Assembly: GCA_003021235.1 (NCBI GenBank) | Contig: PXQR01000040.1 | Location: forward strand, 16,100-80,099 | From: Halobacteriales archaeon QH_6_64_20 | GTDB taxonomy: Archaea > Halobacteriota > Halobacteria > Halobacteriales > Halococcaceae | Direction: 5' to 3' | Length of the DNA: 64,000 bases | Part shown: positions 31,326 through 54,265 of the stretch, piece after piece | Layout of the letters: each line of letters opens with the position of its first letter | Position numbering within the stretch: position 1 is the stretch's first letter | The notes under the pieces: generated by a model | The model's database searches: none | Told to the model about the DNA's origin: nothing | The model's input: the letters and a program-made list of their open reading frames with translations, nothing else | Program-made: the position numbers and the translations under genes

Positions 31326-33932
31326 TCAGGCGGCTCCGTCGCTGTCCTCGCCCGCCCTGCTCGTATCGTTGTCTCCGAAGCCGTCGGTGTCGGGCGGTTC
31401 GGTAGCGGAGGCGGCGGTCGCGGTTCGTGTGACCGTCGGCGTTAGGACGTCCGTAACCGCGGCCGTCGGCGAAGCCGTCGTCGGTGTGGCCGGTGTAGCC
31501 GTCGTCGTCGCTGTCGGTGTGAGCGTAGCAGTCGCTGTCTCGGTTGCCGTCGCCGTCAGCGTTACTGGTGTGGCTGTGACCGTCACCGTCGGTGTAGTCG
31601 TGGCCGTCGGTGTGACCGTAGCCGCTTCAGTCGTCGCCGTCACTGTCGGCGCGGTCGTGGCTGTAGTCGCGGGCGTCGTTGTCGTCGCCGTCGGTGTAGC
31701 CGTGAGTGTAGCCGTTCTCGTTTCGGTCGGCGTCGCCGTCGTCGTTCCGGTCACGGTCGACGTCGATGTCGCCGCCGGTGTGGGTGTGGTCGTCGTCGCG
31801 GCCGTGGCTGTGGCCGTTGCCGTCGATACGGGCGTAGCCGTGGGTGTCGCCGTTTCGATCGCGGTCGCCGCCGGCGCAGGCGTGGCCGTCGGCACAGGCG
31901 TGGCTGTCACCGTCGGTGTAAGCGCGGGTGTCGGTGTCGATGTCGGGGCGGCCGTCGCCGTCGGTGTAGGAGTCGCGGTCGCTATCGATGTAGGTGTGGC
32001 TACGTTCGTCGTCGTTGCGGTCGCCTCGGGGGTGGTGGTCGTCGCTGTCGCATTGGTCGTCACGCCCGTACCGGCGACGGTACCTCGATTCGGAACCGTC
32101 GAGTCGTTCTCGATCCCCTCGACGTAGTAGAGATACACTCCATCGCTCGCCTGGATCCGATGGAGGCCGGGTTGGTTCGACAGCGAGTCGAACTGCTGTC
32201 GGCTGAAGCGAAGCCCCCTGAACACTTCGAGTTCGCGAACGACGTCCGCTCTCGTGTAGACGAAGTACCGATCGGACGGCGAGAGTTCGCGGATACGCGT
32301 GAAGTTCTCCCCGTAGTATCCCTGGTCGTCGTTCCGGCTCGACTCGACTCCCTCGACGCCGACGACGGCGTCCCGGAACCGCCACGGTCCCTGTCGAACG
32401 CCGAACATCTCGATCGAGCGATTTTGATGGGAAAAGGCGGTCTCGTAGCCGCTTACCCGGTCGTCGCTCACGTGGCCGCTCGACTGGAAGATATACGGCG
32501 AGGGGTACAACACCGCCGTCGAGAGCACGAGCATGAATCCCAACACGAGGACCGTCGCGAGACGGATCCGTTCGGGGGCGAGCATCTCCGACAGCGCGGC
32601 GACGTACCGGTGGATGGCGATCGCGCCCAGGATCGTGGCGATCGCCATAATGAACCCCAGGTTTCTGAAAAAGAGGTTCGACGCGACGCCGATGAAAAAG
32701 GCAAACGAATAGGGCACGAGGACGAACAACCCCACCGAAAAGTACCTGAGAAGCGCAGTCGTGTCCGGGTCGAACTGCTCGTTGTCTCCTAACAGGCTGA
32801 TAAGCATGAGCAGGGCGACGAGCGCGGCGAACAGCGCCGAGATGAAAAAGAGCTTGAGGAATATCTCGGTGATGCTCGCGCCGATCGCCGCGAGCGACCC
32901 GCCGCGCTGTTGGGCGATCGCCGCGGCGTCCTCGCTCCCTTCGAGGACGAGGCCGACGACCTCGGTGAGGATCGTCCCGAACGCCCGACGAAAGGTCTCA
33001 CGGGTACCCGCCCAGAGGAAGAACACCACCGAGAGAAAAGTCGTCTGTCCGTACAGCGTCCGGTGGGCGCGTATCCGACCGCCGGCACCGTACCGATGCG
33101 CGGCGAACTGAACCAGCGAAACCGTGACGAACAGGCCGATCGCGTTCGCGGCCTGCTGGGGGTGATATATCACGACGGCGACCGATGCGACCGCGAGCAA
33201 CACCGATATCGTCGGGATCGAGCGAACGGTACCCGGCCGCGACCCGGCATCGGGCGCTGCGAGCAGGTACTGGACGAGCAGATACAGCATGAGCGGCGAG
33301 AACAACACGTTATCGGTGATCGGATGGGGATCGTAGTGGGTGGCGATCTGGTTGAGCGGCAACACCAGGAAAGCCGCGAACACGCCGACGAGCATGGCAC
33401 CGTCCTGGCCGGTGATCGCCCGAACACACAACGGGACGAAGACGAAAAAGGACAGCATGATACAGACCACGAAGAACAGAAGCGCCCGGTTGGTCGAAAA
33501 GCCGATCAGCCGGTGGAAGAAGATCGCCGTCGTGTGGAGTCCGGGATAGAACAGCCCATAGGGGCTCAACGTTCCGCCGAGAACGTCGCGCACCCACCCC
33601 AGATGGGTCAACGAGTCGCCGGTCCCCATGTAATAATACCCTCGAATCATCGGGAGCGAAGCCGCTGCGAGCATCCCGCTCCCGCCAAGGACGAGGCTCG
33701 CCGTACTCAGATACCCCCGCGGCGCGTAAAAGGAGACGAACAACGAGACCGCCAGCGCAACACCCAGGCCGAGCCAGAACACCGCCGGCGTCGCCGCGTA
33801 GATGTCGACCTCGTAGTCCGTCGCCGGCGAGAGGTACGCGCCGAGCACCGCCACGGCGAGCGCGAGGTAGCCAATAGCGAGGACTGCCTTGTAGCGCCTG
33901 CCCGCTCGGTTCGCCGTGTCTGTACCGCTCAT
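31326..33932 (-). CDS. Large multi-TM GT-C-like membrane protein with about 230-aa Thr/Ala/Pro-rich tail (paralog of 17591-19723)
   Basis: YKAVLAIGYLALAVAVLGAYLSPATDYEVDIY core; GTGDSLTHLGWVRDV; HYDPHPIT; tail of TATPTATAT-type sequence. Confidence 0.65.
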   Translation of the reverse strand: MSGTDTANRAGRRYKAVLAIGYLALAVAVLGAYLSPATDYEVDIYAATPAVFWLGLGVALAVSLFVSFYAPRGYLSTASLVLGGSGMLAAASLPMIRGYYYMGTGDSLTHLGWVRDVLGGTLSPYGLFYPGLHTTAIFFHRLIGFSTNRALLFFVVCIMLSFFVFVPLCVRAITGQDGAMLVGVFAAFLVLPLNQIATHYDPHPITDNVLFSPLMLYLLVQYLLAAPDAGSRPGTVRSIPTISVLLAVASVAVVIYHPQQAANAIGLFVTVSLVQFAAHRYGAGGRIRAHRTLYGQTTFLSVVFFLWAGTRETFRRAFGTILTEVVGLVLEGSEDAAAIAQQRGGSLAAIGASITEIFLKLFFISALFAALVALLMLISLLGDNEQFDPDTTALLRYFSVGLFVLVPYSFAFFIGVASNLFFRNLGFIMAIATILGAIAIHRYVAALSEMLAPERIRLATVLVLGFMLVLSTAVLYPSPYIFQSSGHVSDDRVSGYETAFSHQNRSIEMFGVRQGPWRFRDAVVGVEGVESSRNDDQGYYGENFTRIRELSPSDRYFVYTRADVVRELEVFRGLRFSRQQFDSLSNQPGLHRIQASDGVYLYYVEGIENDSTVPNRGTVAGTGVTTNATATTTTPEATATTTNVATPTSIATATPTPTATAAPTSTPTPALTPTVTATPVPTATPAPAATAIETATPTATPVSTATATATAATTTTPTPAATSTSTVTGTTTATPTETRTATLTATPTATTTTPATTATTAPTVTATTEAATVTPTATTTPTVTVTATPVTLTATATETATATLTPTATTTATPATPTTASPTAAVTDVLTPTVTRTATAASATEPPDTDGFGDNDTSRAGEDSDGAA
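31330..32080 (-). repeat. Low-complexity short-period DNA encoding the Thr/Ala/Pro-rich tail
   Basis: Reiterated gtcgccgtcggtgta-type motifs on + strand. Confidence 0.85.
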
Positions 33933-34169
33933 AGGGGAGACACCGATCCGCGCCGGCGAATCGGCTAATCGGCCGTTCCGTAACCGCACGTATCGGAGCG
34001 GGTCTTAAGTCCCTTACTACCGAACGGCGCGATCGGCGTCCACTGTACCGAGAGCGGTCGACTCGCACGCCGGTTCGTCGAGCGCGTAGCGAGAGCGTAC
34101 CGGACACCCGGCCGGGCGACGCGTAGGCGTAGCGGTGAGCTTTCGTCCGGCGAAAGGTGAGACGAGCGT

Positions 34170-35817: not shown

Positions 35818-35929
35818 CTTCCCACAGAAGAGCGAAGGTTTTTAATTCATCGCGCAAACTCCGATGCAGAATGGCCCTCCAAGCCACGGAACGCGACCAT
35901 TACTGCGACTACGACTATCGGGTGGTGCT

Positions 35930-37015
35930 ATGAGGTATCTGTTCTTCACGAACACCCCTGCCCACGTCCACCTCTACAAGCACGCAGTCGAGGAGTTACG
36001 CGAGCGCGGCCACGAGGTGTTCGTCCTCGGGCGGGATTACGGCTGTACGGCGAGCTTGCTCGAGTACTACGACCTGCCACACCGAATTTACGGGGGCTGT
36101 GATACGACGAAGGCGTCGTTGTTCACGTCGCTGCCGCGTTCGTATCTGGAGATCGCACGGCAGGTCCGCCGGTATCGTCCCGATCTGATCTTCGGTGTCG
36201 GCGCGTACTCCGCGCACGCCGGCGCGCTCGCCGGCGCTCCGGTCGTGTTGATCCTCGATTCGGAACCCACCGGCCTCGATCACGCGATCTCTCGGCCCTT
36301 CGCGAAGCTGGTGCTTACCCCACACGTCTTCGGGAAGGACTTAGGTGGGAAACACTACCGCTTTCGAGGGTTCAAGGAGTGTGCGTACCTCCACCCCGAC
36401 GTCTACGAACCGCAGGTGAACGTCCGCGAAGCGCTCGGCATCGGCGCGGAGGAAAAGTACGCCATCCTCCGGCTCAACGCGTTTGGCTCCCATCACGACG
36501 TGAGTCACTCGGGGCTCACGCCCGCCCGGCGACGCGCCCTCATCGACCGCCTCGCCGAGTTCGCGACCGTCTTCGTCTCCGACGAGGGCCGATCGATGGA
36601 TTTCGAGGGAGTCGACGCCCGCCCGTTCGACCTGCACCCCGGTCTCATGCACGACGCGCTCGCAGAAGCCCAGCTGCTGGTCGCCGACACTCAGACGATG
36701 GTCACCGAAGCCGCCCTCCTGGGGACGCCGGCGATCCGCTCGAACAGTTTCGTCGGCGACGACGACATGGGCAACTTCGTCGAACTCGCGCGCAACGAAC
36801 TCATCTACAATATCGCCGACTTCGAGCGGGTGATCGAAACGGCGGTGGAGCTGATCGACGACGACGAGGTCCCCGAAACCTGGCGTCGGCGACGTGACGC
36901 GTACATGGCCGACAAGATCGACCTCACCGGACTGATCGTCGACGTCGCGCTCAACCGCGCGGCCGCCGAGGACGTCGAGGGCCTCTCCCGACAACCCGTG
37001 CTCAGACCGGCCTGA
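35930..37015 (+). CDS. DUF354-family (GT-B-like) protein
   Basis: MRYLFFTNTPAHVHLYKHAVEELRERGHEVFVLGRDYG..LLVADTQTMVTEAALLGTPAIRSNSFVG. Confidence 0.85.
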   Translation: MRYLFFTNTPAHVHLYKHAVEELRERGHEVFVLGRDYGCTASLLEYYDLPHRIYGGCDTTKASLFTSLPRSYLEIARQVRRYRPDLIFGVGAYSAHAGALAGAPVVLILDSEPTGLDHAISRPFAKLVLTPHVFGKDLGGKHYRFRGFKECAYLHPDVYEPQVNVREALGIGAEEKYAILRLNAFGSHHDVSHSGLTPARRRALIDRLAEFATVFVSDEGRSMDFEGVDARPFDLHPGLMHDALAEAQLLVADTQTMVTEAALLGTPAIRSNSFVGDDDMGNFVELARNELIYNIADFERVIETAVELIDDDEVPETWRRRRDAYMADKIDLTGLIVDVALNRAAAEDVEGLSRQPVLRPA

Positions 37016-38961: not shown

Positions 38962-40032
38962 TCAGAGTACGCTGTTGACCCGCTCGTAGGCCGTCTTCGC
39001 GAGGGTCATCCGCGGTCCGGCGGACTCGACGGCGTAGTAATGGCGGAGATCGGCACCGAACTTCGCCTTGTACCGACAGAGCCGCTCGGTGTTCGCGCCG
39101 ACCAGGTCGTACTGGCTCACCGACGCGAGCAACGAGTCGCCGTTGCCGTCTCCGCCCTCGTCCCTGTTCCCGTTTCTGTTCGTCGAGTCCGCCCCGGCGA
39201 CGTCGCGGATGATATGCCAGTGGAGCAAACTATTGACGCTTACGCCCTCGTGAGTGGTCCGAACGCCGCCGAGCCAGTAGTACGCACAGTCGTTCGAGTA
39301 GAGCACGATAATGCCTCCCAGAAACCGTCCGTCGGCGGTTTCTGCGGTGTAGACCCTATACCGACCCTCCGTACCGAGCGCGTCGAGCAGATCGCGGACG
39401 TACTCCCAGCTCGATCCGAGTTCCTCGCCCTGTTCGGCGTATCGAGCGGCGGTATGCCAGTAGACGGCTTCGGCGGCCTCGCGGCCCGCGCGCGAGACGA
39501 CGACATCCGACTCGGTGCCGTCACGGATCTCCCGCCGCAGGCTCTTGCTGAACGAGCTCAACAACTCGTCGGGCGACCCGTCGACCGCGAGCCGGTAGGT
39601 AAAGGCGGCGTCGACGTCGAAGCCCGCCCACCTGAACGGGCGAGGGTCGCCGTAGGTCGGCGCACAGACCGCCCGAAAGAGCGTCCGGGAGTCGTCGGCG
39701 TCGAGCGTTTCGATCACCTTCTCGGCGAACTCGCCGTTTTGCTTCTCGCGTTTGCGCCGCTTCGGGCTTTGTGGCATGGCGATCGGCCCGAGATGAGGGA
39801 TATTGAACCCCGGCGGCGGCGAGGAGAGCATCGCCGTCCCCAGGGGGCCGCGCCGGACGAACAGCGGTACCAACGCCACCGGCTGGTCGCCGTTGAATCC
39901 CCCCAACAGGGAGAGGTCGCCGGCCGCGTGATCGTCGAGCACTGAGAGGGCCGGCGCGGTGTGAAAGACCTCGAACCCCGAGTCGGGGAGGGCGTCGGCC
40001 CACTCGTCGAGCGTGAGTCGTTCGATCCTCAT
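38962..40032 (-). CDS. FemAB-like GNAT (peptidoglycan-bridge-type acyltransferase fold)
   Basis: LSSFSKSLRREIRDG..FLGGIIVLYSNDCAYYWLGGV..YDLVGANTERLCRYKAKFGADLRHYYAVE. Confidence 0.8.
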   Translation of the reverse strand: MRIERLTLDEWADALPDSGFEVFHTAPALSVLDDHAAGDLSLLGGFNGDQPVALVPLFVRRGPLGTAMLSSPPPGFNIPHLGPIAMPQSPKRRKREKQNGEFAEKVIETLDADDSRTLFRAVCAPTYGDPRPFRWAGFDVDAAFTYRLAVDGSPDELLSSFSKSLRREIRDGTESDVVVSRAGREAAEAVYWHTAARYAEQGEELGSSWEYVRDLLDALGTEGRYRVYTAETADGRFLGGIIVLYSNDCAYYWLGGVRTTHEGVSVNSLLHWHIIRDVAGADSTNRNGNRDEGGDGNGDSLLASVSQYDLVGANTERLCRYKAKFGADLRHYYAVESAGPRMTLAKTAYERVNSVL

Positions 40033-40195
40033 GCTATCACCTCGGTGGAGTTCGGTTCGACATCGATATGGAGCGCAATAAAGTCCTGTCGTTTCGAGCG
40101 TTCAGTTCGCCATCCCGGAACGGGACTCCGGTTTCGATCTCGGCTCCATCGACCCAGTGACCGATCGGGGATCGGAGATCGGGGTTCGTCGATGG

Positions 40196-41251
40196 TCATC
40201 GAGCGCGCCCCGCTCCCGTGTTCGTGTCGCTCTTCGTTCCGGTGTCGGTGGCCCGTCCGTGCTCGATCGTCTCGTAGAGGTCGCCCGGCGGGCCGACCCA
40301 GGCGTCCATCGAAAGCGCACGTTCGATCAGCCGCCGGTAGAGGTCGCGGTAGCCCGGAAAGTCCTCGGCACTGAAATAGCGTGGATGCCAGAGCACGGTC
40401 ATTACCGCCTCGTTCGCGGCGGCTTCCTCCAAGAGGCGCTCACACTCGCGCCAGGCCGCCTCGACGTCGATCCCGCGCCGGGCACCTCGGACAGTGCGGG
40501 CCTCGGAGCCGTCTCGACGGTCGGTGCCTCGCGCGCTCGAACGTCCGGTGTTTTCGATATCTCCGGTGGCTTCGGTATCGACGCCTGGCGCGTTCGCGAG
40601 CGCCGCTTCCATGATCGTGAGCGGGAAGACCCGGAAGTCGTCGTCGAACGGCGCGAGGAGGTCGTACCCGTGTCCGAACCCGTATGCGGTACTCGATCCG
40701 AGGCTCGCGTCGTACGAAAGCCCAAGTTCGCGGTGTCGATCCCACGTTTCGGTGGGAGGATTCGCCAATCGAAGGTAGTGTTGGCGGCCGCCGCGTACGT
40801 CGTGACCGAGAACCGCTTCGAGTTTCCGTTTCTCCGCGCCCAAGCGCTCCGTGTCGCGATGGGTGCCATAGGATCCATGGAGGCCGACCTCCCAGCCGCC
40901 GTCGTCGAGTTCGCGGATCACCCGAGCGATCGCGGGTGCCGTGGGGTCGTAGCCGCCGAGCCATTCGAGCCAGTAAAAGGGCGTTAGCGTCTCGCCTAAC
41001 GGCCGGGCAAGCAGGTACTGCGAGTCGAGGAAATAAAAGGCCGACCTGACCCCCAGGCTCGCCTCCAGGGCCATTATCTCCTCGAACTGCCAGTAGGGGT
41101 TGATGCCCGGAAGCAGGCCTTCGAGATGGGCGAGACGGCGCTCGCTCGCCGCGTAAAAAAGCGACTGGTAGGTCTTGTAGGGGCGATCGACGTCGTGGGT
41201 GAGACAGAGCGCGAAGGAGCCGTCGACCTCGGGACCGGGAGCGTCAGTCAT
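40196..41251 (-). CDS. Polysaccharide deacetylase family protein
   Basis: FALCLTHDVDRPYKTYQSLFYA..SAFYFLDSQYLLARPLGE..GGWEVGLHGSYGTHRD. Confidence 0.8.
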   Translation of the reverse strand: MTDAPGPEVDGSFALCLTHDVDRPYKTYQSLFYAASERRLAHLEGLLPGINPYWQFEEIMALEASLGVRSAFYFLDSQYLLARPLGETLTPFYWLEWLGGYDPTAPAIARVIRELDDGGWEVGLHGSYGTHRDTERLGAEKRKLEAVLGHDVRGGRQHYLRLANPPTETWDRHRELGLSYDASLGSSTAYGFGHGYDLLAPFDDDFRVFPLTIMEAALANAPGVDTEATGDIENTGRSSARGTDRRDGSEARTVRGARRGIDVEAAWRECERLLEEAAANEAVMTVLWHPRYFSAEDFPGYRDLYRRLIERALSMDAWVGPPGDLYETIEHGRATDTGTKSDTNTGAGRAR

Positions 41252-42425
41252 CGTTTCCTGGATCGGGGACGTCGGTGCCGATATCGGTACGATCGCCGTT
41301 TCGCTTGCCGTTGGTCTCGACTCTCCCGCCGTCGGGATCGGTGTCCGGGTCGGCACTGCTCGCACGCTCGATGCCGGCGAGGGCGGGGACGATCGCTTCG
41401 GCGGCGTTCCCGTCGCCGTACAGGCTCGGTTTCGGCGGGCGGTCGATCTCTCCCACCAGTTCGCGCCGGATCGCTCCGGGGTCAGCCCCTACCAGGGTGT
41501 TCCAGCCGGCTTCGACGGTTTCGATCCACTCGGTCTCCTCGCGCAGGGTGACACACGGCGTATCGAGGAAGAAGGCCTCCTTCTGGACACCCCCTGAGTC
41601 GGTGGCGACGCGCTCCGCGCCGTCGAGCAACCGGACGAAATCGAGGTACCCTGCCGGCTCGGTTAGTCCGATGCCGGTTGTCGCGTCTTCGAGCCCGAAC
41701 TCCTCGATCCGCTTTACCGTTCGCGGGTGGGCCGGGAGAACGACCTCCGTCGGGAGATCGGAGAGAGTCGTCAGGATCGCTTCCAACCGATGGGGATCGT
41801 CGGTGTTGCCCGCCCGGTGGACCGTCGCGAGAACGTACTCGCCCTCGCGGACGCCGAGGTCGGCGAGGACCGTCGAGACGCCGGCCGCGCGCTCGCGCGC
41901 CCACTGGATCGCGTCGTACATCACGTCGCCGGTCACGAACACGCCCCGGGTGATCCCCTCGGCGGCGAGGGCGTCGCAGGCGCGCTCGGTGGGGACACAG
42001 AGCACGTCGGAGACGTGATCGGTGAGCACGCGATTTACCTCCTCGGGCATCGCGCGATTATAGCTTCGCAGGCCCGCCTCGACGTGACAGAGCGTCGACT
42101 CGCGTTTCGCCGCGACGACCGCCCCCGCGAGCGTCGAGTTGGTGTCGCCGTAGACGAGGACCGTATCGGGGTCTTCGCGCTCACAGAGCGCTTCGAGTTC
42201 GGCCATCATGCGGCCGGTCTGACGGCCGTGGGAACCCGAGCCGATCCCCAGGTGATAATCCGGTTCGGGAATGGACAGTTCCTCGAAGAAGACCTCCGAG
42301 AGCCCGGCGTCGTAGTGCTGACCGGTGTGGACGAGCACCTCCTCGTGTTCGCGGCGAAGCGCCGCCGACAGCGGAAAGGCCTTGACGAACTGCGGGCGCG
42401 CGCCGACGACCGAGAGGACCTTCAT
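41244..42425 (-). CDS. wecB: UDP-N-acetylglucosamine 2-epimerase (non-hydrolysing; WecB/WbpI-like)
   Basis: MKVLSVVGARPQFVKAFPLSAAL..HTGQHYDAGLSEVFFEEL..VYGDTNSTLAGAVVAA..HVEAGLRSYNRAMPEEVNRVLTDHVSD; GGAGG before ATG 42425. Confidence 0.92.
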   Translation of the reverse strand: MKVLSVVGARPQFVKAFPLSAALRREHEEVLVHTGQHYDAGLSEVFFEELSIPEPDYHLGIGSGSHGRQTGRMMAELEALCEREDPDTVLVYGDTNSTLAGAVVAAKRESTLCHVEAGLRSYNRAMPEEVNRVLTDHVSDVLCVPTERACDALAAEGITRGVFVTGDVMYDAIQWARERAAGVSTVLADLGVREGEYVLATVHRAGNTDDPHRLEAILTTLSDLPTEVVLPAHPRTVKRIEEFGLEDATTGIGLTEPAGYLDFVRLLDGAERVATDSGGVQKEAFFLDTPCVTLREETEWIETVEAGWNTLVGADPGAIRRELVGEIDRPPKPSLYGDGNAAEAIVPALAGIERASSADPDTDPDGGRVETNGKRNGDRTDIGTDVPDPGNDD

Positions 42426-43460
42426 TCCCCGCCTCCTTCCGAGCGAACGGGCGTCGGCGCGCCGACCGGCCGGTCCGCGGGCGGCGACGGTCGATCGCGA
42501 GGTCGAAGCGTCCGGCGACGGCGGGTCGACGGACGGCGACTCGACCGACGAGTGCTCCGAACGATCCGAACGAGCCGAGCGGTCCGAACGCATCGCCCGC
42601 GCCGCGCCGGCGGCCGAGAGCACGCTCGCCGCGAGACCGAGGGCTCCGAGACCGTAGAGAAAGGCCAGCGGATGGAAGTCGAGCAGGAGGTATCGACTTC
42701 GCAGTCGGCGCAGGAAGTTTCGGAGGAGTACCTTCGACAGCGAGGGCACGAACGCCGCGTACCTGATACCGCTGTGTTCGGTGCCGTAACGCGCCGGATG
42801 GGACACGTCGGCGATCGGCTTCGAGCGGACGTTGAGCGAGGTGAGGACGTCGTTCAAGTACCCGTAATCGTCGTACAGCGTCTCGATGCCCACCTCGGCG
42901 AGCGCCTCCGTGGAGATCGCGGTGTAGCCGTTCTGCGGGTCGGTCATCTCCCAGTACCCGCTCGCGATCTTCGTCAGAAACGTAAGCAGTAGGTTGCCGA
43001 ACAGCCGGAAGGGCGGCATTTCGCGCCAGAATTCCCTCCGTTTGAGCCGCGTTCCCTTCGCGTACGCCACGTCGCCGGCGACGACCGGGGCGACGATCCG
43101 GCCGAGGTGGGCGGGATCCATCTGTCCGTCGGCGTCCATCGTCGCCACGACGTCGAGGCCGTCGGCGAGCGCGCTCGCGTAGCCGGTCTTGCGCGCGCCG
43201 CCGGGGCCGCGATTGTGCTCGTGGCGGATCGGCACGACGAACCCCCCCTCGCCGCCGTCGGGAAACGTCGTGTCCGGTTCGCGGCGCTCGTTGGCCGCCG
43301 CGGCGTGACGGGTCACCGCCGTCCAGGTGTCGTCGGTCGAGCCGTCGTCGATCACGTACACTCGATCGACGAAGGCGGGCATCGTCTCGATCACGTCGCC
43401 GACGAGGGCCGCTTCGTTGTACGCGGGCACGACGACGCCGATCGTTTTGCCCTCGTACAT
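42426..43460 (-). CDS. Glycosyltransferase family 2 (dolichyl-P-sugar synthase-like), in frame with downstream epimerase without an intervening stop
   Basis: IGVVVPAYNEAALVGDVIETMP..VIDDGSTDDTW..VATMDADGQMDPAHLGRIVAPV; the 738-aa ORF 41244-43460 covers both. Confidence 0.88.
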
Positions 43461-43461
43461 C

Positions 43462-44856
43462 TTACCTGGAGTGTCCGCCGGCGATGGTATAGACCCGGTG
43501 GTTCGTCTCCGCGAGGTCCAGTGCGTTTCGTCCGTCGATCACGATCAGCGGCTCGAACGCTGCCCAGTCGAGCGCGTCGAACGCCTCGTGCGCCGTGACG
43601 AGCACGGCGGCGTCGACCGCCTGCTCGGCGGCGGCCTCGATCCCGATCGGGTCGGCCCCGAACGCCGCGATCTCCGCGTCGTCGAGGATCGGGTCGGTCG
43701 CGAGCACCGACGCCCCTCCCTCCTGAAGGCCGTCGATGAGCGGCCCGGCGGGGGTCGCGGCGGTCTCGTTGACCCCTGGGCGATAGGTCAACCCGAGGAC
43801 GAGCACCGTCTTTCCCTCCATAGTGGTGCCCTCGGCGACGAACTCCTCGCGGAGTTTCGATATCGCGAACTCGGGCATCGCGTCGTTGACCTCCCGGGCC
43901 GTGCGCAACAGCGACGTATCGGTATCGAACCCGTGGATCAGGAAATAGGGATAGTACGGGATGCAGTGGCCGCCGACGCCGATCCCGGGGGTATGAATGT
44001 CACAAAAGGGCAGGGTGTTCGCGACCGAAATCGCCTCGTTGACGTCGATGTCCAGTTCGTCGGTGAATCGGGCGAGTTCGTTCGCGAGCGCGATGTTGAC
44101 GTCGCGATAGACCCCTTCGAACACCTTGACGGCTTCCGCGGTGGTCGCGTCCGTCACCGGAAGCGTTCCCTGGGAGTTGATCTCGTCGTAGACGAGCGCC
44201 GCCGCGCGCGTACTCTCGGGATCGATCCCGCCGACGACCTTGGGGTACGCCCCGCGGATGTCCTCGATCGCCCGGCCGCTCGACGTGCGCTCGGGACAAA
44301 AGGCCAGGCCGAACTCGGTAGGTGAAATCCCGCTTTCCTCGGCGAGGATCGATCGGACGACCTCCCGGCAGGTCGTCGGGGGCACCGTACACTCGACGCA
44401 CACCAGATCGCCGGGAGCGAGCCCGCTCGCGATGTCGGCCGAAACGGCTTCGAGCGCCGAGAGGTCGGGGGAACGATCGTCGTGGATCGGTGTCGGGACG
44501 ATGATTACATGCACTGTCGCCTCGGCGGCCGCCCCAGCGGCGTCAGTGCGCGCCGACAGCGCCCCCGTCTCGATCGTGTCGGCGAGGAGGGCGTCGAGTC
44601 CGGGTTCGCGCACGACATGGCTCTCGCCGCGTCCGACTGCCTCGACGACGTCGGGCGAGACGTCGACCCCGATCGTGTTAGTAGTCACATCGGCGTAGAC
44701 CGCCGCCAGCGGCAGGCCCATCTTCCCGAGCCCGTACACCGCGACGGGCACGTCCCCTTCGGTGAGCGCCCGGCGCTGTTCGTCGGGCGGGTGGGAACCC
44801 TCGTAGAGCGATACCGGCTCGTCGTCGGTTTCGGGGTCGCGTTCGTCGAGGTTCAT
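43462..44856 (-). CDS. Nucleotide-sugar 6-dehydrogenase (UDP-HexNAc dehydrogenase, WbpA/WecC-like)
   Basis: VAVYGLGKMGLPLAAVYAD..ECTVPPTTCREVVRSIL..FCPERTSSGRAIEDIRGAYPKVVGGID..GIGVGGHCIPYYPYFLIHGF. Confidence 0.9.
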   Translation of the reverse strand: MNLDERDPETDDEPVSLYEGSHPPDEQRRALTEGDVPVAVYGLGKMGLPLAAVYADVTTNTIGVDVSPDVVEAVGRGESHVVREPGLDALLADTIETGALSARTDAAGAAAEATVHVIIVPTPIHDDRSPDLSALEAVSADIASGLAPGDLVCVECTVPPTTCREVVRSILAEESGISPTEFGLAFCPERTSSGRAIEDIRGAYPKVVGGIDPESTRAAALVYDEINSQGTLPVTDATTAEAVKVFEGVYRDVNIALANELARFTDELDIDVNEAISVANTLPFCDIHTPGIGVGGHCIPYYPYFLIHGFDTDTSLLRTAREVNDAMPEFAISKLREEFVAEGTTMEGKTVLVLGLTYRPGVNETAATPAGPLIDGLQEGGASVLATDPILDDAEIAAFGADPIGIEAAAEQAVDAAVLVTAHEAFDALDWAAFEPLIVIDGRNALDLAETNHRVYTIAGGHSR

Positions 44857-45839
44857 TGGAGGGGTTCGGCTCGTCGCCGTGGTTCGGCGGCCAGTTCGTC
44901 GATCCGTTCTGCGACCTCGATGGCGGCCAGGCCGTCTTCGGCCGACACGATCGGAGTGGTCCCCTCGCGGACGGCGCGGACGAAGGCGGCGAGTTCGCGC
45001 CGCAGCGGTTCGCCGCTCGCGACCATCGGACGCTCGACGATCCCCTCGTGGCGGTAGCGTACGCCCCCGTTTCGCTCGATGTACTCGGGCAGCGAGCGAC
45101 GGTGCAGTTCGACCGACTGGCTGAGGTAATCGAGCGTGACCCAACAGCCCTCGGCCGTGATCGAGAGGTCGCGCACCTTCTTCTGGGTGAGCCGACTCGC
45201 CGTCAAACTGGCGATCGTGCCGTCGGCAAAGCCCAACTGGGCGTCGATGTAGCGGTTCTCACGGGTACCGAGCGCGTTCACACGTTCGAGATCCGCATCG
45301 ACGAGCGAGAGCACGACGTCGATGTCGTGGATCATCAGATCGAACACCGCGCTGTCGGCGATGTCGCGATCGAGGGGCGGGCCGAGCCGCCGGGCGTCGA
45401 GGGCGAGGATCTCCGTGTCGGCGAGCACCTCGCGGGCGGCCGCGACGGCGGGGTTGAACCGTTCGACGTGGCCCACGCCGACGACGACGCCGCGCGCCGC
45501 CGCCAGGTCGATCAGTTCCCGTCCCTGCTCGCAAGTGGCGACGAACGGTTTCTCGACGAGCACGCCGACGCCGTGTTCGATGCACGCGCGGGCGGTCTCG
45601 TAGTGGAACTCGGTAGGGACCGCGACCGAGACGAGGTCGATCGCTTCGAGCAGGGCGTCGCACCGGTAGGCCGTCGTCCCCTGACGGGAAGCGATTGTCG
45701 CCGCGCGACCCGCGTCGGCGTCGGTTACGCCCACCAACTCGACGTCCGGGAGTTCGTTGTAGACCCGCGCGTGGTGTTGACCCATAGTGCCGACGCCGAT
45801 CACGCCGGCGTTCAGGGACTCGTCCACTCGTTCGGCCAC
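44853..45839 (-). CDS. Gfo/Idh/MocA oxidoreductase (WbpB/WlbA-like UDP-sugar 3-dehydrogenase)
   Basis: AGVIGVGTMGQHHARVYNELPDVELVGVTDAD..GVGVLVEKPFV..GVGHVERFNPAV. Confidence 0.88.
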   Translation of the reverse strand: MAERVDESLNAGVIGVGTMGQHHARVYNELPDVELVGVTDADAGRAATIASRQGTTAYRCDALLEAIDLVSVAVPTEFHYETARACIEHGVGVLVEKPFVATCEQGRELIDLAAARGVVVGVGHVERFNPAVAAAREVLADTEILALDARRLGPPLDRDIADSAVFDLMIHDIDVVLSLVDADLERVNALGTRENRYIDAQLGFADGTIASLTASRLTQKKVRDLSITAEGCWVTLDYLSQSVELHRRSLPEYIERNGGVRYRHEGIVERPMVASGEPLRRELAAFVRAVREGTTPIVSAEDGLAAIEVAERIDELAAEPRRRAEPLQ

Positions 45840-45841
45840 CG

Positions 45842-46930
45842 TCAGGTCCCCCCGTAGCTATAGGCCGCGTCGATCACCGTCTCCACGTCCGCCTCCGTCA
45901 GTCCGGGGTGAACGGGGAGGGACAGGACGCTTTCGGCGGCGTACTCGGCGGCGGGGGCAGTCACTTCGCTGTCCTCGTACGGTGGCTGGAAGTGGATCGG
46001 TTGGGGGTAGTAGATCCCCGCGCCGACGCCGCTTCCCTCCAGGTGATCGACGAGGGCGTCTCGCTCCTCACAGCGGATCGTGTACTGATGATAGACGTGA
46101 CGGCGGTCGGCCGGTTCGACGGGCGTCTCGATCCCGTCGAGGTCCGACAGCGCCTCGGAAAGCCGGGCGGCGTTCGCTCGTCGCGACTCGTTGTACTCGG
46201 GGAGCCGGTCGAGCTGGACGCGTCCGATCGCGCCCGCAAAACTCGTCAGTCGGAAGTTGTGACCCATCCTCGTGTGCTCGTAGGTCGGGCGGTCGGGATC
46301 GCGGCCGTGATTGACGAAACTCGTTGCCCCCGCCGCGACGTCGTCGCGATCGGTCGTGACCATACCGCCTTCGCCGGTGGTCATGTTCTTCGTGGGATAA
46401 AAGGAGAAACACGCCGCGTCTCCGAGCGTCCCGACGCGAGTCCCGCCAACGGCCGCGCCGTGGGCTTGGGCGGCGTCCTCGACCAGCGCACAGTCGTGTG
46501 CGTCCGCGATCTCGCGCAGTTCGCCCATCGCCGCCGGCAGTCCGAACAGGTGGACCGCGAGTATCGCGTCGGCGTCGTGTTCGGCGACCAGTGCTTCGGT
46601 CGAGTGGGGATCGAGGTTATAGGTCGCGAGATCGATGTCGGCGAAGACGGGCGTCGCGCCAGCGAATCGGATCGCGTTCGCGCTCGCGATAAACGAGAAG
46701 GGAGAGGTAACGACGACGTCGCCCTCGCCGATGTCGAGCGCCTCGAAGGCCGTCTGGAGGGCGGTCGTCCCGTTGGTGGTCGCCACGCCGTGCGAGGCTC
46801 CACAGAACTCGGCGAACTCGGCTTCGAACTCCCTGACTTGTGGCCCGTCGGTGAACTGTCCGCTATCCATAACGTCGAGGACCGCCTGTTTCTCCCGGTC
46901 GCCGAACTCGGGGTTCGCGATCGGGATCAC
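45842..46930 (-). CDS. DegT/DnrJ/EryC1/StrS PLP aminotransferase (WbpE/WlbC-like)
   Basis: GVATTNGTTALQTAFEALDIGEGDVVVTSPFSFIASANAIRFAGATPVFADID..VEDAAQAHGA..CFSFYPTKNMTTGEGGM. Confidence 0.92.
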   Translation of the reverse strand: MIPIANPEFGDREKQAVLDVMDSGQFTDGPQVREFEAEFAEFCGASHGVATTNGTTALQTAFEALDIGEGDVVVTSPFSFIASANAIRFAGATPVFADIDLATYNLDPHSTEALVAEHDADAILAVHLFGLPAAMGELREIADAHDCALVEDAAQAHGAAVGGTRVGTLGDAACFSFYPTKNMTTGEGGMVTTDRDDVAAGATSFVNHGRDPDRPTYEHTRMGHNFRLTSFAGAIGRVQLDRLPEYNESRRANAARLSEALSDLDGIETPVEPADRRHVYHQYTIRCEERDALVDHLEGSGVGAGIYYPQPIHFQPPYEDSEVTAPAAEYAAESVLSLPVHPGLTEADVETVIDAAYSYGGT

Positions 46931-47508
46931 AGGTCGTTACCCCCTTCGAGTTCTTCCGGAAGCGGCCGGTGGACCGCCGGCGCGCCGACGGCGAGCGTAT
47001 CGGAGGGCACGTCTCCGGTGACGACGGCGCCGGCGGCGACGAACGAGCGTTCGCCGATTTCGACGCCGGGGAGGATCGTCGCGTTCGCACCGATCGAGAC
47101 GTGGTCGGACAGTACCGGGCCGGAGGGGCTGTAGGGAACGCGGACCGGGTACATATCGTTCGTTAGTACCGCCCGGGGGCCGATAAATACGTGGCTTCCG
47201 ATCGTCGTGTGTGTCGGAACGTACACCCCGGTCTGGAAGCTCACGCCCGAGCCGATCTCGCTTTCGCCGTCGATTACCGTCTTCGTCCCGAGCACGACGC
47301 TGTTTCCGATCGCGGTGTGTTCACGGACGAGCACGTCGTGGCCGGTAACGAGATCGTTGCCGATCTCGGTGTCCGCATATATGATCGACCCGGCGCGAAC
47401 CCGGGCGTTCTCGCCGATCACGGCCGGGCCGGCCGCCTCGTCGTACGGGTAGCCGACGATGGCGGTCTCGTCGATCGCAGCGCCCGAACCGATCTCGGCG
47501 TCGGTCAC
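46927..47508 (-). CDS. Left-handed beta-helix acyltransferase (WbpD/WlbB-like UDP-sugar N-acetyltransferase)
   Basis: Hexapeptide repeats; HTTIGSHVFIGPRAVLTNDMYPVRVPY..VSIGANATILPGVEIGERSFVAAGAVVTGDVP; GTG start. Confidence 0.9.
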   Translation of the reverse strand: MTDAEIGSGAAIDETAIVGYPYDEAAGPAVIGENARVRAGSIIYADTEIGNDLVTGHDVLVREHTAIGNSVVLGTKTVIDGESEIGSGVSFQTGVYVPTHTTIGSHVFIGPRAVLTNDMYPVRVPYSPSGPVLSDHVSIGANATILPGVEIGERSFVAAGAVVTGDVPSDTLAVGAPAVHRPLPEELEGGNDL

Positions 47509-51585: not shown

Positions 51586-53244
51586 ATGGCCGATCGAGCG
51601 GGTGGTATGGAGACCCTCCTGGTGGGGATCGACGCGGCGTGTGCGCCGGTGCTCTCGGATCTGGCGGGTATGAACGCCGAGATCCCGACGCTTCGCGGGC
51701 TACTAGAGGAGGGCGCGAGCGGCCCGCTCGAATCCCAGATCCCGCCCTGGACCGCGAGCGCGTGGCCCTCCCTGTTCACAGGCACCAACCCCGGCAAACA
51801 CGGGATCTTTTCGTTTCTGGCCTTCGAGGGGTACGACTGGGACGTCGTGAACGCGACCCATCTGCGCGAACCCGCCCTCTGGGAACTGCTCGACTCGCGA
51901 GGACTGTCAAGCGTCGTCGTCAACGTTCCAGTGACCCATCCCCCGCGATCGTTTTCCGGAGCGCTGATTCCAGGGTATACCGCACCCGAGAACCCCGCTT
52001 GTCATCCCGAAGGGGTGCTTGACGAAGTCCGCCAGGAGATCGGCAGCTATCGGGTCTACCCGCCCCACGAGGGGGCGAGCGACGCCGACAGGAGCGAGAT
52101 GGTCGCGAACTACCGCGATCTCGTCCGGACCCGCGGCGAGGCGTTTCGCCTTCTCGCCGACCGATACGATCCCGACTTTGGATTCGTCCAGTTCCAGGCC
52201 ACCGATTCGGTGTTTCACGAACGTCCCGGCGACATGGAGGCAGTGCGGGCGGTCTACGAGGCGGTCGACGACGAAATCCGGGAAACGCTCGATGCCTGCG
52301 AGCCGCGAAACACCCTCGTTGCGAGCGATCACGGGATCGGGCGATACGACGGCTACGAGTTCCGTGTCAACGAGTTCCTCCGGGAGGCGGGCTACGTCGA
52401 GACGAAGCGCGGCGGCGAGTCGGGGATGCCGGCTTGGGGACCGATACGCAACGGGAAGGGTGATGACGACCCCGCGGTGCTCGAACGGGCGATGGCGCTC
52501 GCGGCGACGGTAGGCGTTACCAGCCAGCGCGTCGGTGGCGTCGTCGAACGCTTAGGGCTCACCGACCTCGTGCTCGACGTCGTCCCACAGGGAATGATCC
52601 GGGCGGGCACCGAGCAGGTCGACTTCCCGAACTCGCGGGCGTACATGCGCGAGCGGATCGAACTCGGGATCAGGATCAACCTCGAAGGACGGGAACCGAA
52701 CGGGATCGTCCCCGAGACGGAGTACGAAGCAATCCGCGAGGACCTCATTGCCCGCCTGCGCGGCGTTCGTACGCCCGACGGCGAGCCGGTCTTCGAGCGG
52801 GTTGTCCCCCGCGAGACGGTCTTTCACGGGCCGGCCGCCGGGGAAGCGGTCGACGTCGTGACCGTCCCCCGGGAGTTCGATCAGTTCCTCTCCGCAACGC
52901 TCGCGGGAGAACGCTTCGGCCCGCCGACCGAACCCTACAATCACAAGTTAGCGGGGATCGTCGCGGTTCATGGAGAGGACGTCGATACCGACGCCGCGGC
53001 CTCGGACGAGACCGACGGGATCGACGGGATCGGCGGGATCGACGGCGCACACCTGTTCGACGTCGCGCCGACGGTACTTGCGACGCTCTCGCTTCCGCGC
53101 GCCGAGCATATGGACGGAACGGTCCTCCCGATCGTTGAGTCGGCCGACGAGGCGGCGTACCCGGCGATCGATCGCGGGGAGCGAGTGGCGACCGACGACG
53201 GCGGGGTCGAACGCAGGCTGAGCGATCTCGGATACATCGAGTGA
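51586..53244 (+). CDS. Alkaline phosphatase superfamily protein (third paralog)
   Basis: LLVGIDAACAPVLSDLAGM, SQIPPWTASAWPSLFTGTNPGKHGIFSF, TLVASDHGIGRYDGYEFRVNEFL. Confidence 0.88.
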   Translation: MADRAGGMETLLVGIDAACAPVLSDLAGMNAEIPTLRGLLEEGASGPLESQIPPWTASAWPSLFTGTNPGKHGIFSFLAFEGYDWDVVNATHLREPALWELLDSRGLSSVVVNVPVTHPPRSFSGALIPGYTAPENPACHPEGVLDEVRQEIGSYRVYPPHEGASDADRSEMVANYRDLVRTRGEAFRLLADRYDPDFGFVQFQATDSVFHERPGDMEAVRAVYEAVDDEIRETLDACEPRNTLVASDHGIGRYDGYEFRVNEFLREAGYVETKRGGESGMPAWGPIRNGKGDDDPAVLERAMALAATVGVTSQRVGGVVERLGLTDLVLDVVPQGMIRAGTEQVDFPNSRAYMRERIELGIRINLEGREPNGIVPETEYEAIREDLIARLRGVRTPDGEPVFERVVPRETVFHGPAAGEAVDVVTVPREFDQFLSATLAGERFGPPTEPYNHKLAGIVAVHGEDVDTDAAASDETDGIDGIGGIDGAHLFDVAPTVLATLSLPRAEHMDGTVLPIVESADEAAYPAIDRGERVATDDGGVERRLSDLGYIE

Positions 53245-53263: not shown

Positions 53264-54265
53264 ATGGTCGAAGTCTCGATCGCAGGTCACGACGACGTCG
53301 AGAAGTGGGACAGCTACGTCGATCGCTCGCCCCAGGGTAACGCCTTTCACTACGACGGGAGCTTAGCGGCGATCGCGGAGCACTCGGACACCGAGGTTCA
53401 TCGCCTGATCGGCTACAAGGGCCAGGAGATCGTCGGTCTCTTTCCGGTGTTCGAACGCGAGATACTGGGTCAAAGCGCTCTGTTCTCGCCGCCGCCCGCC
53501 CTCCTGGTACCTTACCTGGGACCGGCACTACTCAATATCGGGAAGCTGAAACAGCGGAAAGCCGAACGCCGCCACGGCCGGTTCGTTCGGGGGTGTTTCG
53601 AGACGCTCTTCGAGGAGGTAGCTCCGAGGTACGTCTCGCTCCGGACCGATGGCCGATACACCGATCTCAGGCCCATCACGTGGACCGGCTTCGACGTGAC
53701 GCCCGATTACACCTACACTGTGGACCTCACGCGTGAGGAAGGCGACCTGCTGGGAAGCTTTTCGAGCGACGCTCGGAGCAATATCCGGACGGGCGAGGAC
53801 GTCGAATACGCCGTCGAGGAAGGCGGCACGGAGGCGATCCGTCGGATCATCACTCAGGTCGAAGCGCGGCATACGTCCCAGGGCCTCTTTTATGGGGTTA
53901 CCCCGGAATTCGTCACCGACCTCCATCGGTCGCTTCCCAACGGACGAGTGCGCCCCTATACCATCGCGGTCGACGGCGAGTTCGTCGGCGGGATGGTAAC
54001 CGTCGAGGACGAGGATACGATCTACCGGTGGCAGGGCGGCGCGAAACACGACGCCGACGCGCCGGCGAACGACCTGCTCGACTGGGAGATCATGACCGAC
54101 GCGATGGACCGAGGGATGGAAACATACGACCTGGTGGGAGCGAACAACCCGCGACTGAACGGGTACAAGGCGAAGTTCAGTCCCGACCTCCGGGCCTTCC
54201 ATAGCGCGGAACGGGCGAGTCCGGCCATGAAACTCGCCGCTGAAGCGTACACGCGGTTGCGCTGA
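53264..54265 (+). CDS. FemAB-like GNAT (second paralog)
   Basis: LLGSFSSDARSNIRTG..FVGGMVTVEDEDTIYRWQGGA..YDLVGANNPRLNGYKAKFSPDLRAFHSAE. Confidence 0.82.
   Translation: MVEVSIAGHDDVEKWDSYVDRSPQGNAFHYDGSLAAIAEHSDTEVHRLIGYKGQEIVGLFPVFEREILGQSALFSPPPALLVPYLGPALLNIGKLKQRKAERRHGRFVRGCFETLFEEVAPRYVSLRTDGRYTDLRPITWTGFDVTPDYTYTVDLTREEGDLLGSFSSDARSNIRTGEDVEYAVEEGGTEAIRRIITQVEARHTSQGLFYGVTPEFVTDLHRSLPNGRVRPYTIAVDGEFVGGMVTVEDEDTIYRWQGGAKHDADAPANDLLDWEIMTDAMDRGMETYDLVGANNPRLNGYKAKFSPDLRAFHSAERASPAMKLAAEAYTRLR

Follow-up and report, generated by a model that had tools for sequence, protein, structure and literature searches.

The DNA analysed here, a 64,000-nucleotide stretch (the window) of Halobacteriales archaeon QH_6_64_20, is part of contig 40 in a genome of 3.6 Mb and 152 contigs that is 90% complete. 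It carries a block of eight genes or gene parts on the minus strand, which are listed in Table 1 together with a divergent neighbour. The initial annotation had placed a FemAB-like GNAT beside a polysaccharide deacetylase; both genes are real and their coordinates were exact. The epimerase, GT2 and sugar-nucleotide genes described on the same strand are also present, the GT2 and the epimerase being parts of one open reading frame (ORF; 41244-43460).

Table 1. Genes of the block and its divergent neighbour, in window coordinates.
Feature	Position	Strand	Matches and remarks
DUF354 putative glycosyltransferase	35864..37015	+ (divergent)	PF04007 51.3 bits
FemAB/FemX-like double-GNAT transferase (PF13480)	38962..40032	-	356 aa; putative N-aminoacyltransferase, VimA-like role
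VimE-like CE4 deacetylase	40196..41251	-	NF053580 39.6 bits; predicted substrate UDP-2,3-diacetamido-uronic acid, losing one acetyl
WbpI/WecB-type non-hydrolysing 2-epimerase, part of fused ORF	41244..42425	-	TIGR00236 283 bits (cut-off 210); PF02350 333
GT2 glycosyltransferase, part of fused ORF 41244-43460	42426..43460	-	PF00535 79.4 bits
WbpA-like UDP-N-acetylhexosamine 6-dehydrogenase	43462..44856	-	TIGR03026 347 bits (cut-off 190); NF040825 280; ATG 44856
WbpB-like 3-dehydrogenase (Gfo/Idh/MocA)	44853..45839	-	NF040723 220 bits (cut-off 450)
WbpE-like DegT/DnrJ/EryC1 aminotransferase	45842..46930	-	PseC/LegC/ArnB-type models, 275 bits and lower
WbpD-like hexapeptide-repeat N-acetyltransferase	46927..47508	-	TIGR03570 NeuD/PglB/VioB family 77.5 bits

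Judged by family and context, the genes upstream of the deacetylase make up the full Wbp enzyme set for UDP-GlcNAc3NAcA and UDP-ManNAc3NAcA. WbpB, WbpE and WbpD were assigned at family level and by context, not by equivalog cut-off; the best NCBIfam match of the WbpB-like protein was NF040723, the archaeal UDP-GlcNAc 3-dehydrogenase. The GT2 and the epimerase form one 738-aa ORF in the window, joined in the region 42200-42700 of the minus strand, and are separate genes in relatives, with a stop codon and a second membrane helix between them in the congeners L097, L106 and L107. The single ORF reflects either a recent deletion and fusion or an error of metagenome assembly. Homologues of the DUF354 gene occur in 28 of the 38 deacetylase regions, and the membership of this gene in the pathway is uncertain. 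No RNA was found in the region with Rfam.

Two further features were noticed elsewhere in the window. A large membrane protein (31326-33989, minus strand) ends in some 240 residues rich in Thr, Ala and Pro and matches neither Pfam nor NCBIfam, and its membrane part has homologues in 16 of the 38 deacetylase regions. A second FemAB-like GNAT (53264-54265, plus strand; TIGR03019 35 bits) lies directly 3' of an alkaline-phosphatase-superfamily protein (51586-53244). In related loci, 24 of 44 GNATs of this type lie within 300 bases of a phosphatase-superfamily partner, always on the same strand, and the two genes are a second conserved pair.

The deacetylase gene ends with a stop at 40196. Its longest ORF extends to a GTG at 41365, and the likely start is the ATG at 41251, which overlaps the stop codon of the preceding epimerase gene (ATGACTGA); because this ATG was taken as the start, the protein has 351 aa. 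Deacetylase residue numbers given below are those of the 389-aa ORF, from which 38 is subtracted for the 351-aa protein. Since no Pfam model matches the window's deacetylase, it had been recognised initially from its motifs alone (THDVD, HGSY, RQH and WHP). The single NCBIfam model that matched it was VimE (NF053580), with an E-value of 2.4e-10 and a score that falls below the equivalog threshold of 440 bits. All 40 haloarchaeal relatives matched NF053580 (best 3.8e-21), whereas TIGR03006, the model of the XrtA deacetylase, matched 4 of the 40 weakly (best 3.8e-4) and gave no match for the window's protein. A profile of the haloarchaeal deacetylases scored 86.6 bits with the VimE of Parabacteroides, which was identified by the gene order bcp-recA-GNAT-deacetylase and 731.7 bits to NF053580, and 52.8 bits with a Massilia homologue beside GNATs, compared with 12.2 bits for a genuine XrtA deacetylase of Nitratidesulfovibrio. 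By these sequence comparisons, the deacetylase belongs with VimE, outside the VimE equivalog, and not with the XrtA deacetylases.

Six residues of the deacetylase (D58, D60, H163, R194, H196 and H327) were invariant among the 40 relatives. Its AlphaFold2 model (pLDDT 77, with disordered ends) had CE4 deacetylases and ArnD as the best folds in Foldseek. From the classical H-x3-H metal pair of CE4 enzymes the first His alone is conserved (HGSY), as in VimE (HSSY). The metal-ligand H163 is replaced by Gln (LQGS) in the divergent deacetylases L057, L062, L063 and L189, none of whose genomes yielded a GNAT orthologue; these proteins are perhaps inactive or repurposed. No deacetylase of this kind was found in phage records.

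The GNAT gene is separated from the deacetylase by a 163-base gap and has its own ribosome site (AGGTGAT), 3 bases upstream of the ATG start. The protein matched PF13480 at 71.7 bits (cut-off 22), the FemAB model PF02388 at just 12.7 bits, and TIGR03019 weakly, at 24.1 bits against a cut-off of 260; TIGR03019 was matched by 26 of 35 GNAT relatives (best 3.8e-8). When its AlphaFold2 model (pLDDT 87.8, pTM 0.87) was compared with the PDB by Foldseek, the top 11 matches were aminoacyl-tRNA-dependent or FemABX enzymes (Sba18, Sbb17, FemX and FemA), and CoA-using tandem GNATs ranked lower (2wpw, E 2.8e-10). Sequence identity in the structural matches was 10-16%. Sba18 and Sbb17 are aminoacyl-tRNA-dependent peptide synthases, and two of the matched PDB entries contain streptothrisamine, an amino-sugar acceptor. 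FemX was also the best match among PDB sequences in a profile search (E 0.0066); searching these sequences with the single GNAT or deacetylase of the window returned nothing useful. The modelled double-GNAT fold is thus nearest to that of FemX and FemA.

Comparison of motifs revealed an invariant Y-K-x-K-F (Y321-K322) in the archaeal GNAT family, where DhpH-C has F-K. Lys305 of FemX and Lys329 of DhpH-C are the catalytic lysines (review, PMC12945691), and K322, equated with them by motif, may have the same role. The active-site motifs were intact in both the GNAT and the deacetylase, so there is no active-site loss, and inspection found no signal peptide or membrane helix in either protein. 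Against the archaeal GNAT profile, VimA scored 39.7 bits and a genuine XrtA FemAB protein of Nitratidesulfovibrio 20.2 bits. Likeness to FemAB is shared by VimA, the TIGR03019 family and the archaeal GNAT. Orthology of the GNAT with VimA was considered and is not claimed, because VimA branches elsewhere in the tree (with weak backbone support) and the Parabacteroides VimA has no lysine at the position aligned with K322.

The distribution of the pair was determined in 245 Halobacteria genomes of the window's order, with a threshold of E <= 1e-55 for the GNAT. The deacetylase was present in 130 genomes and the GNAT in 110, of which 107 had both (Fisher p = 6e-42 over the 245 genomes, which, being related, are not independent). 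The pairing is far beyond chance. Both genes lay on one contig in 105 genomes, with the GNAT downstream on the same strand and less than 20 kb from the deacetylase in 102, including 64 within 2 kb. The GNAT was some to many kb away in several genomes, and on another contig in H. morrhuae. Five of the 23 genomes scored as having the deacetylase only do have an adjacent GNAT, below threshold; no GNAT was seen in 18 of the 130 deacetylase-bearing genomes. The order WbpD-WbpE-WbpB-WbpA-GT2-epimerase-deacetylase-GNAT recurs in many Halobacteria (20 kb regions). Outside the order, VimE-like proteins occurred in 44 genomes in a 247-genome sample of Halobacteriota, accompanied in part by Wbp genes and GNATs.

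In the GTDB family of the window, two genomes gave hits at coordinates identical to those of H. thailandensis and Halococcus morrhuae DSM 1307, which places the window in the Halococcus family. All 18 sampled genomes of this family carry the deacetylase and the GNAT, compared with 89 of the 227 others (p 1.4e-7). The block is also present in H. denitrificans and in Haloferax mediterranei, where it lies on pHME505 with the GNAT at L079:18837-19871 and the deacetylase at L079:14989-15927. An asparagine-synthase-like gene (L079:1926-3788) precedes the H. mediterranei block by about 6 kb; WbpS of Porphyromonas is a member of the asparagine-synthase-like superfamily. On a plasmid of Massilia litorea (L225:9827-23866), a VimE-like deacetylase has two FemAB-like GNATs next to it, and genes for acetamidino modification lie nearby.

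The gene content, order, linkage and distribution, the fold and the intact active-site motifs form the established part of what is probably a nucleotide-sugar route of the Wbp/Vim kind, in which the eight genes would lead to a FemX-like aminoacylation for a surface glycan. Its substrates, position of modification, amino acid, tRNA donor and destination we infer as follows. WbpA would oxidise UDP-GlcNAc to UDP-GlcNAcA, WbpB, WbpE and WbpD would together convert the 3-OH into an N-acetyl group, and the WbpI/WecB-type enzyme would epimerise C2 to give the manno form. The VimE-like deacetylase would remove one acetyl, at C2 by analogy with Porphyromonas, and the FemX-like double-GNAT, as a predicted N-aminoacyltransferase, would place an amino acid on the 2-amino group thus exposed, the likeliest candidates being glycine and serine delivered by aminoacyl-tRNA. 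Because the logic is that of Porphyromonas, with an epimerase as in T. forsythia, the expected end product would be UDP-2-N-aminoacyl-3-N-acetyl-mannuronic acid of the Tannerella forsythia type, and the GT2 and other neighbouring glycosyltransferases would transfer the sugar onto a lipid-linked cell-surface glycan.

For Porphyromonas it was proposed that VimE takes off the C2 acetyl and that VimA attaches serine, and replacement by the VimA of T. forsythia changed the serine of the linking sugar to glycine (PMC7468200). The archaeal block shares WbpA, WbpB, WbpE and WbpD with the pathway that Porphyromonas gingivalis and T. forsythia use (PMC7468200) and the epimerase with T. forsythia, and in both systems a VimE homologue has an adjacent GNAT-type transferase. 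In contrast, the archaeal genes are all in one block, the VimE-like protein is without the N-terminal 130-160 or so residues of the NF053580 model, and the GNAT represents another FemAB-like branch. Several observations speak against the pathway: family scores that fall far short of equivalog level (VimE 39.6 against 440 and TIGR03019 24 against 260), the separate branch of VimA and its missing lysine, the 18 deacetylase-bearing genomes in which no GNAT was seen, GNATs located many kb off or on a different contig, and the unconserved second metal His of the deacetylase. In its favour, deacetylases with the His-to-Gln change were seen solely in genomes where no GNAT was found. The archaeal GNAT has the double-GNAT fold and the Y/F-K motif in common with the FemABX enzymes and with Orf11/Sba18 of streptothricin-type antibiotics. 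Orf11 is a FemX-like GNAT that glycylates streptothrisamine from Gly-tRNA (PMC12945691), and this amino-sugar acceptor differs from the acceptor predicted for the archaeal enzyme. We favour, with reservation, the view that the archaeal block works like Wbp/Vim, with a FemX-like instead of a VimA-type transferase. To our knowledge, such an aminoacyl-sugar assembly line has so far been described in bacteria alone, and a T9SS would not be expected in an archaeon. A literature search that covered few subscription journals gave no paper on VimA/VimE in archaea, and it speaks only weakly for novelty.

Published glycan chemistry bears on the predicted product in two genera. The wall of Halococcus morrhuae contains glycine and N-glycyl-glucosaminyl bridges, as described in 1979 by Steber and Schleifer (cited in PMC4187196), and glycine is very low in Hcc. 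salifodinae (PMC4187196). The papers searched propose no gene for N-glycyl-glucosamine in Halococcus. The H. morrhuae genome has WbpD-E-B-A-GT2-epimerase-deacetylase within a single contig and the GNAT on a separate one, and this carrier of the block and the GNAT has an amino acid on a wall-sugar amine. The reported carrier of glycine, however, is glucosamine and not a diaminouronic acid, which counts against the proposed product, as does the low glycine of Hcc. salifodinae. The exopolysaccharide of Haloferax denitrificans ATCC 35960 is a GlcA2,3NAc polymer (PMC3191746) and, like the predicted product of the block, comes from a Wbp route in a haloarchaeon. This polymer is fully N-acetylated and of the gluco form, whereas the window's block adds an epimerase, a deacetylase and a GNAT. 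Its full acetylation was considered as counter-evidence and is resolved by the presence of two wbp loci (L227 and L230) in Haloferax denitrificans. The plain locus (WbpD-E-B-A-GT2, without epimerase, deacetylase or GNAT) fits the published polymer; the other has an epimerase, a deacetylase and two GNATs, and its product is predicted to differ.

Three other explanations were weighed. The initial annotation had taken the FemAB-like protein and the deacetylase for a surface-sugar-modifying pair, which stands, and for kin of exosortase/PEP-CTERM EPS loci, which does not. An XrtA/PEP-CTERM EPS pair (TIGR03019 plus TIGR03006) likewise places a FemAB-like protein next to a CE4 deacetylase within a locus for polysaccharide, and as an archaeal relative of it the pair would serve an EPS that holds sorted proteins, with ArtA as the sortase. 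The weak TIGR03019 matches of the GNAT relatives and the ArtA of this genome agree with such a role, as does the published match of VimA to TIGR03019 (PMC7468200), which also accounts for the FemAB/exosortase resemblance sensed initially; the same authors raised, as a speculation, the idea that sugars modified with amino acids are the products of exosortase loci. In the proposed search with TIGR03019/TIGR03006, however, the deacetylase found its best match elsewhere, in VimE, and the GNAT stayed far below cut-off. Both members of the genuine Nitratidesulfovibrio XrtA pair scored near noise against the archaeal profiles, below the Vim pair. Across the 90% complete genome, the sole clear archaeosortase was ArtA (TIGR04125, 313 bits), on another contig adjoining the diphthine synthase gene, and no exosortase was linked to the block. 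Given the unlinked ArtA, the family scores and the comparison with the genuine pair, the exosortase interpretation was dropped as very improbable.

A stronger competitor, which we still consider unlikely, is that the GNAT is an acyl-CoA-dependent N-acyltransferase that re-adds a formyl, hydroxybutyryl, lactyl or similar group, so that the diaminouronic acid would bear no amino acid. PF13480 is annotated as an acetyltransferase, and CoA-using tandem GNATs do match the model; these rank behind the 11 aminoacyl-tRNA-dependent or FemABX enzymes, and the FemX match in the profile search and the Y/F-K motif point away from CoA as well. The pair could also act after assembly, on a polymer or lipid-linked glycan, for example converting GlcNAc into N-glycyl-glucosamine, with the Wbp genes merely co-located. 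Glucosamine as the glycine carrier in the Halococcus wall, the appearance of ArnD, which acts on a lipid-linked sugar, among the Foldseek matches, and the GNATs lying some kb off in several genomes would suit this course. It is nevertheless improbable, because neither protein showed a signal peptide or membrane helix on inspection, the deacetylase start overlaps the epimerase stop, and the deacetylase occurs together with Wbp genes across Halobacteria as well as in some other Halobacteriota.

Aminoacylation through a Wbp/Vim-like route therefore remains the preferred reading, and by its prediction close to half of the haloarchaeal genomes sampled, including those of Haloferax, a genus with laboratory genetics, would provide for an aminoacylated diaminouronic acid. 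It offers a role for a FemAB-like enzyme in a murein-free cell, and candidate genes for the N-glycyl-glucosamine of Halococcus, which has been known in the wall since 1979 but had no genes assigned to it. We suggest only tentatively, and with considerable doubt, that a FemX-type tRNA-dependent transferase aminoacylates an archaeal nucleotide sugar and so supplies the N-glycyl amino-sugar bridges of Halococcaceae walls. If true, these bridges would be the archaeal counterpart, made with the same enzyme fold, of the FemX-made amino-acid bridges in bacterial murein.
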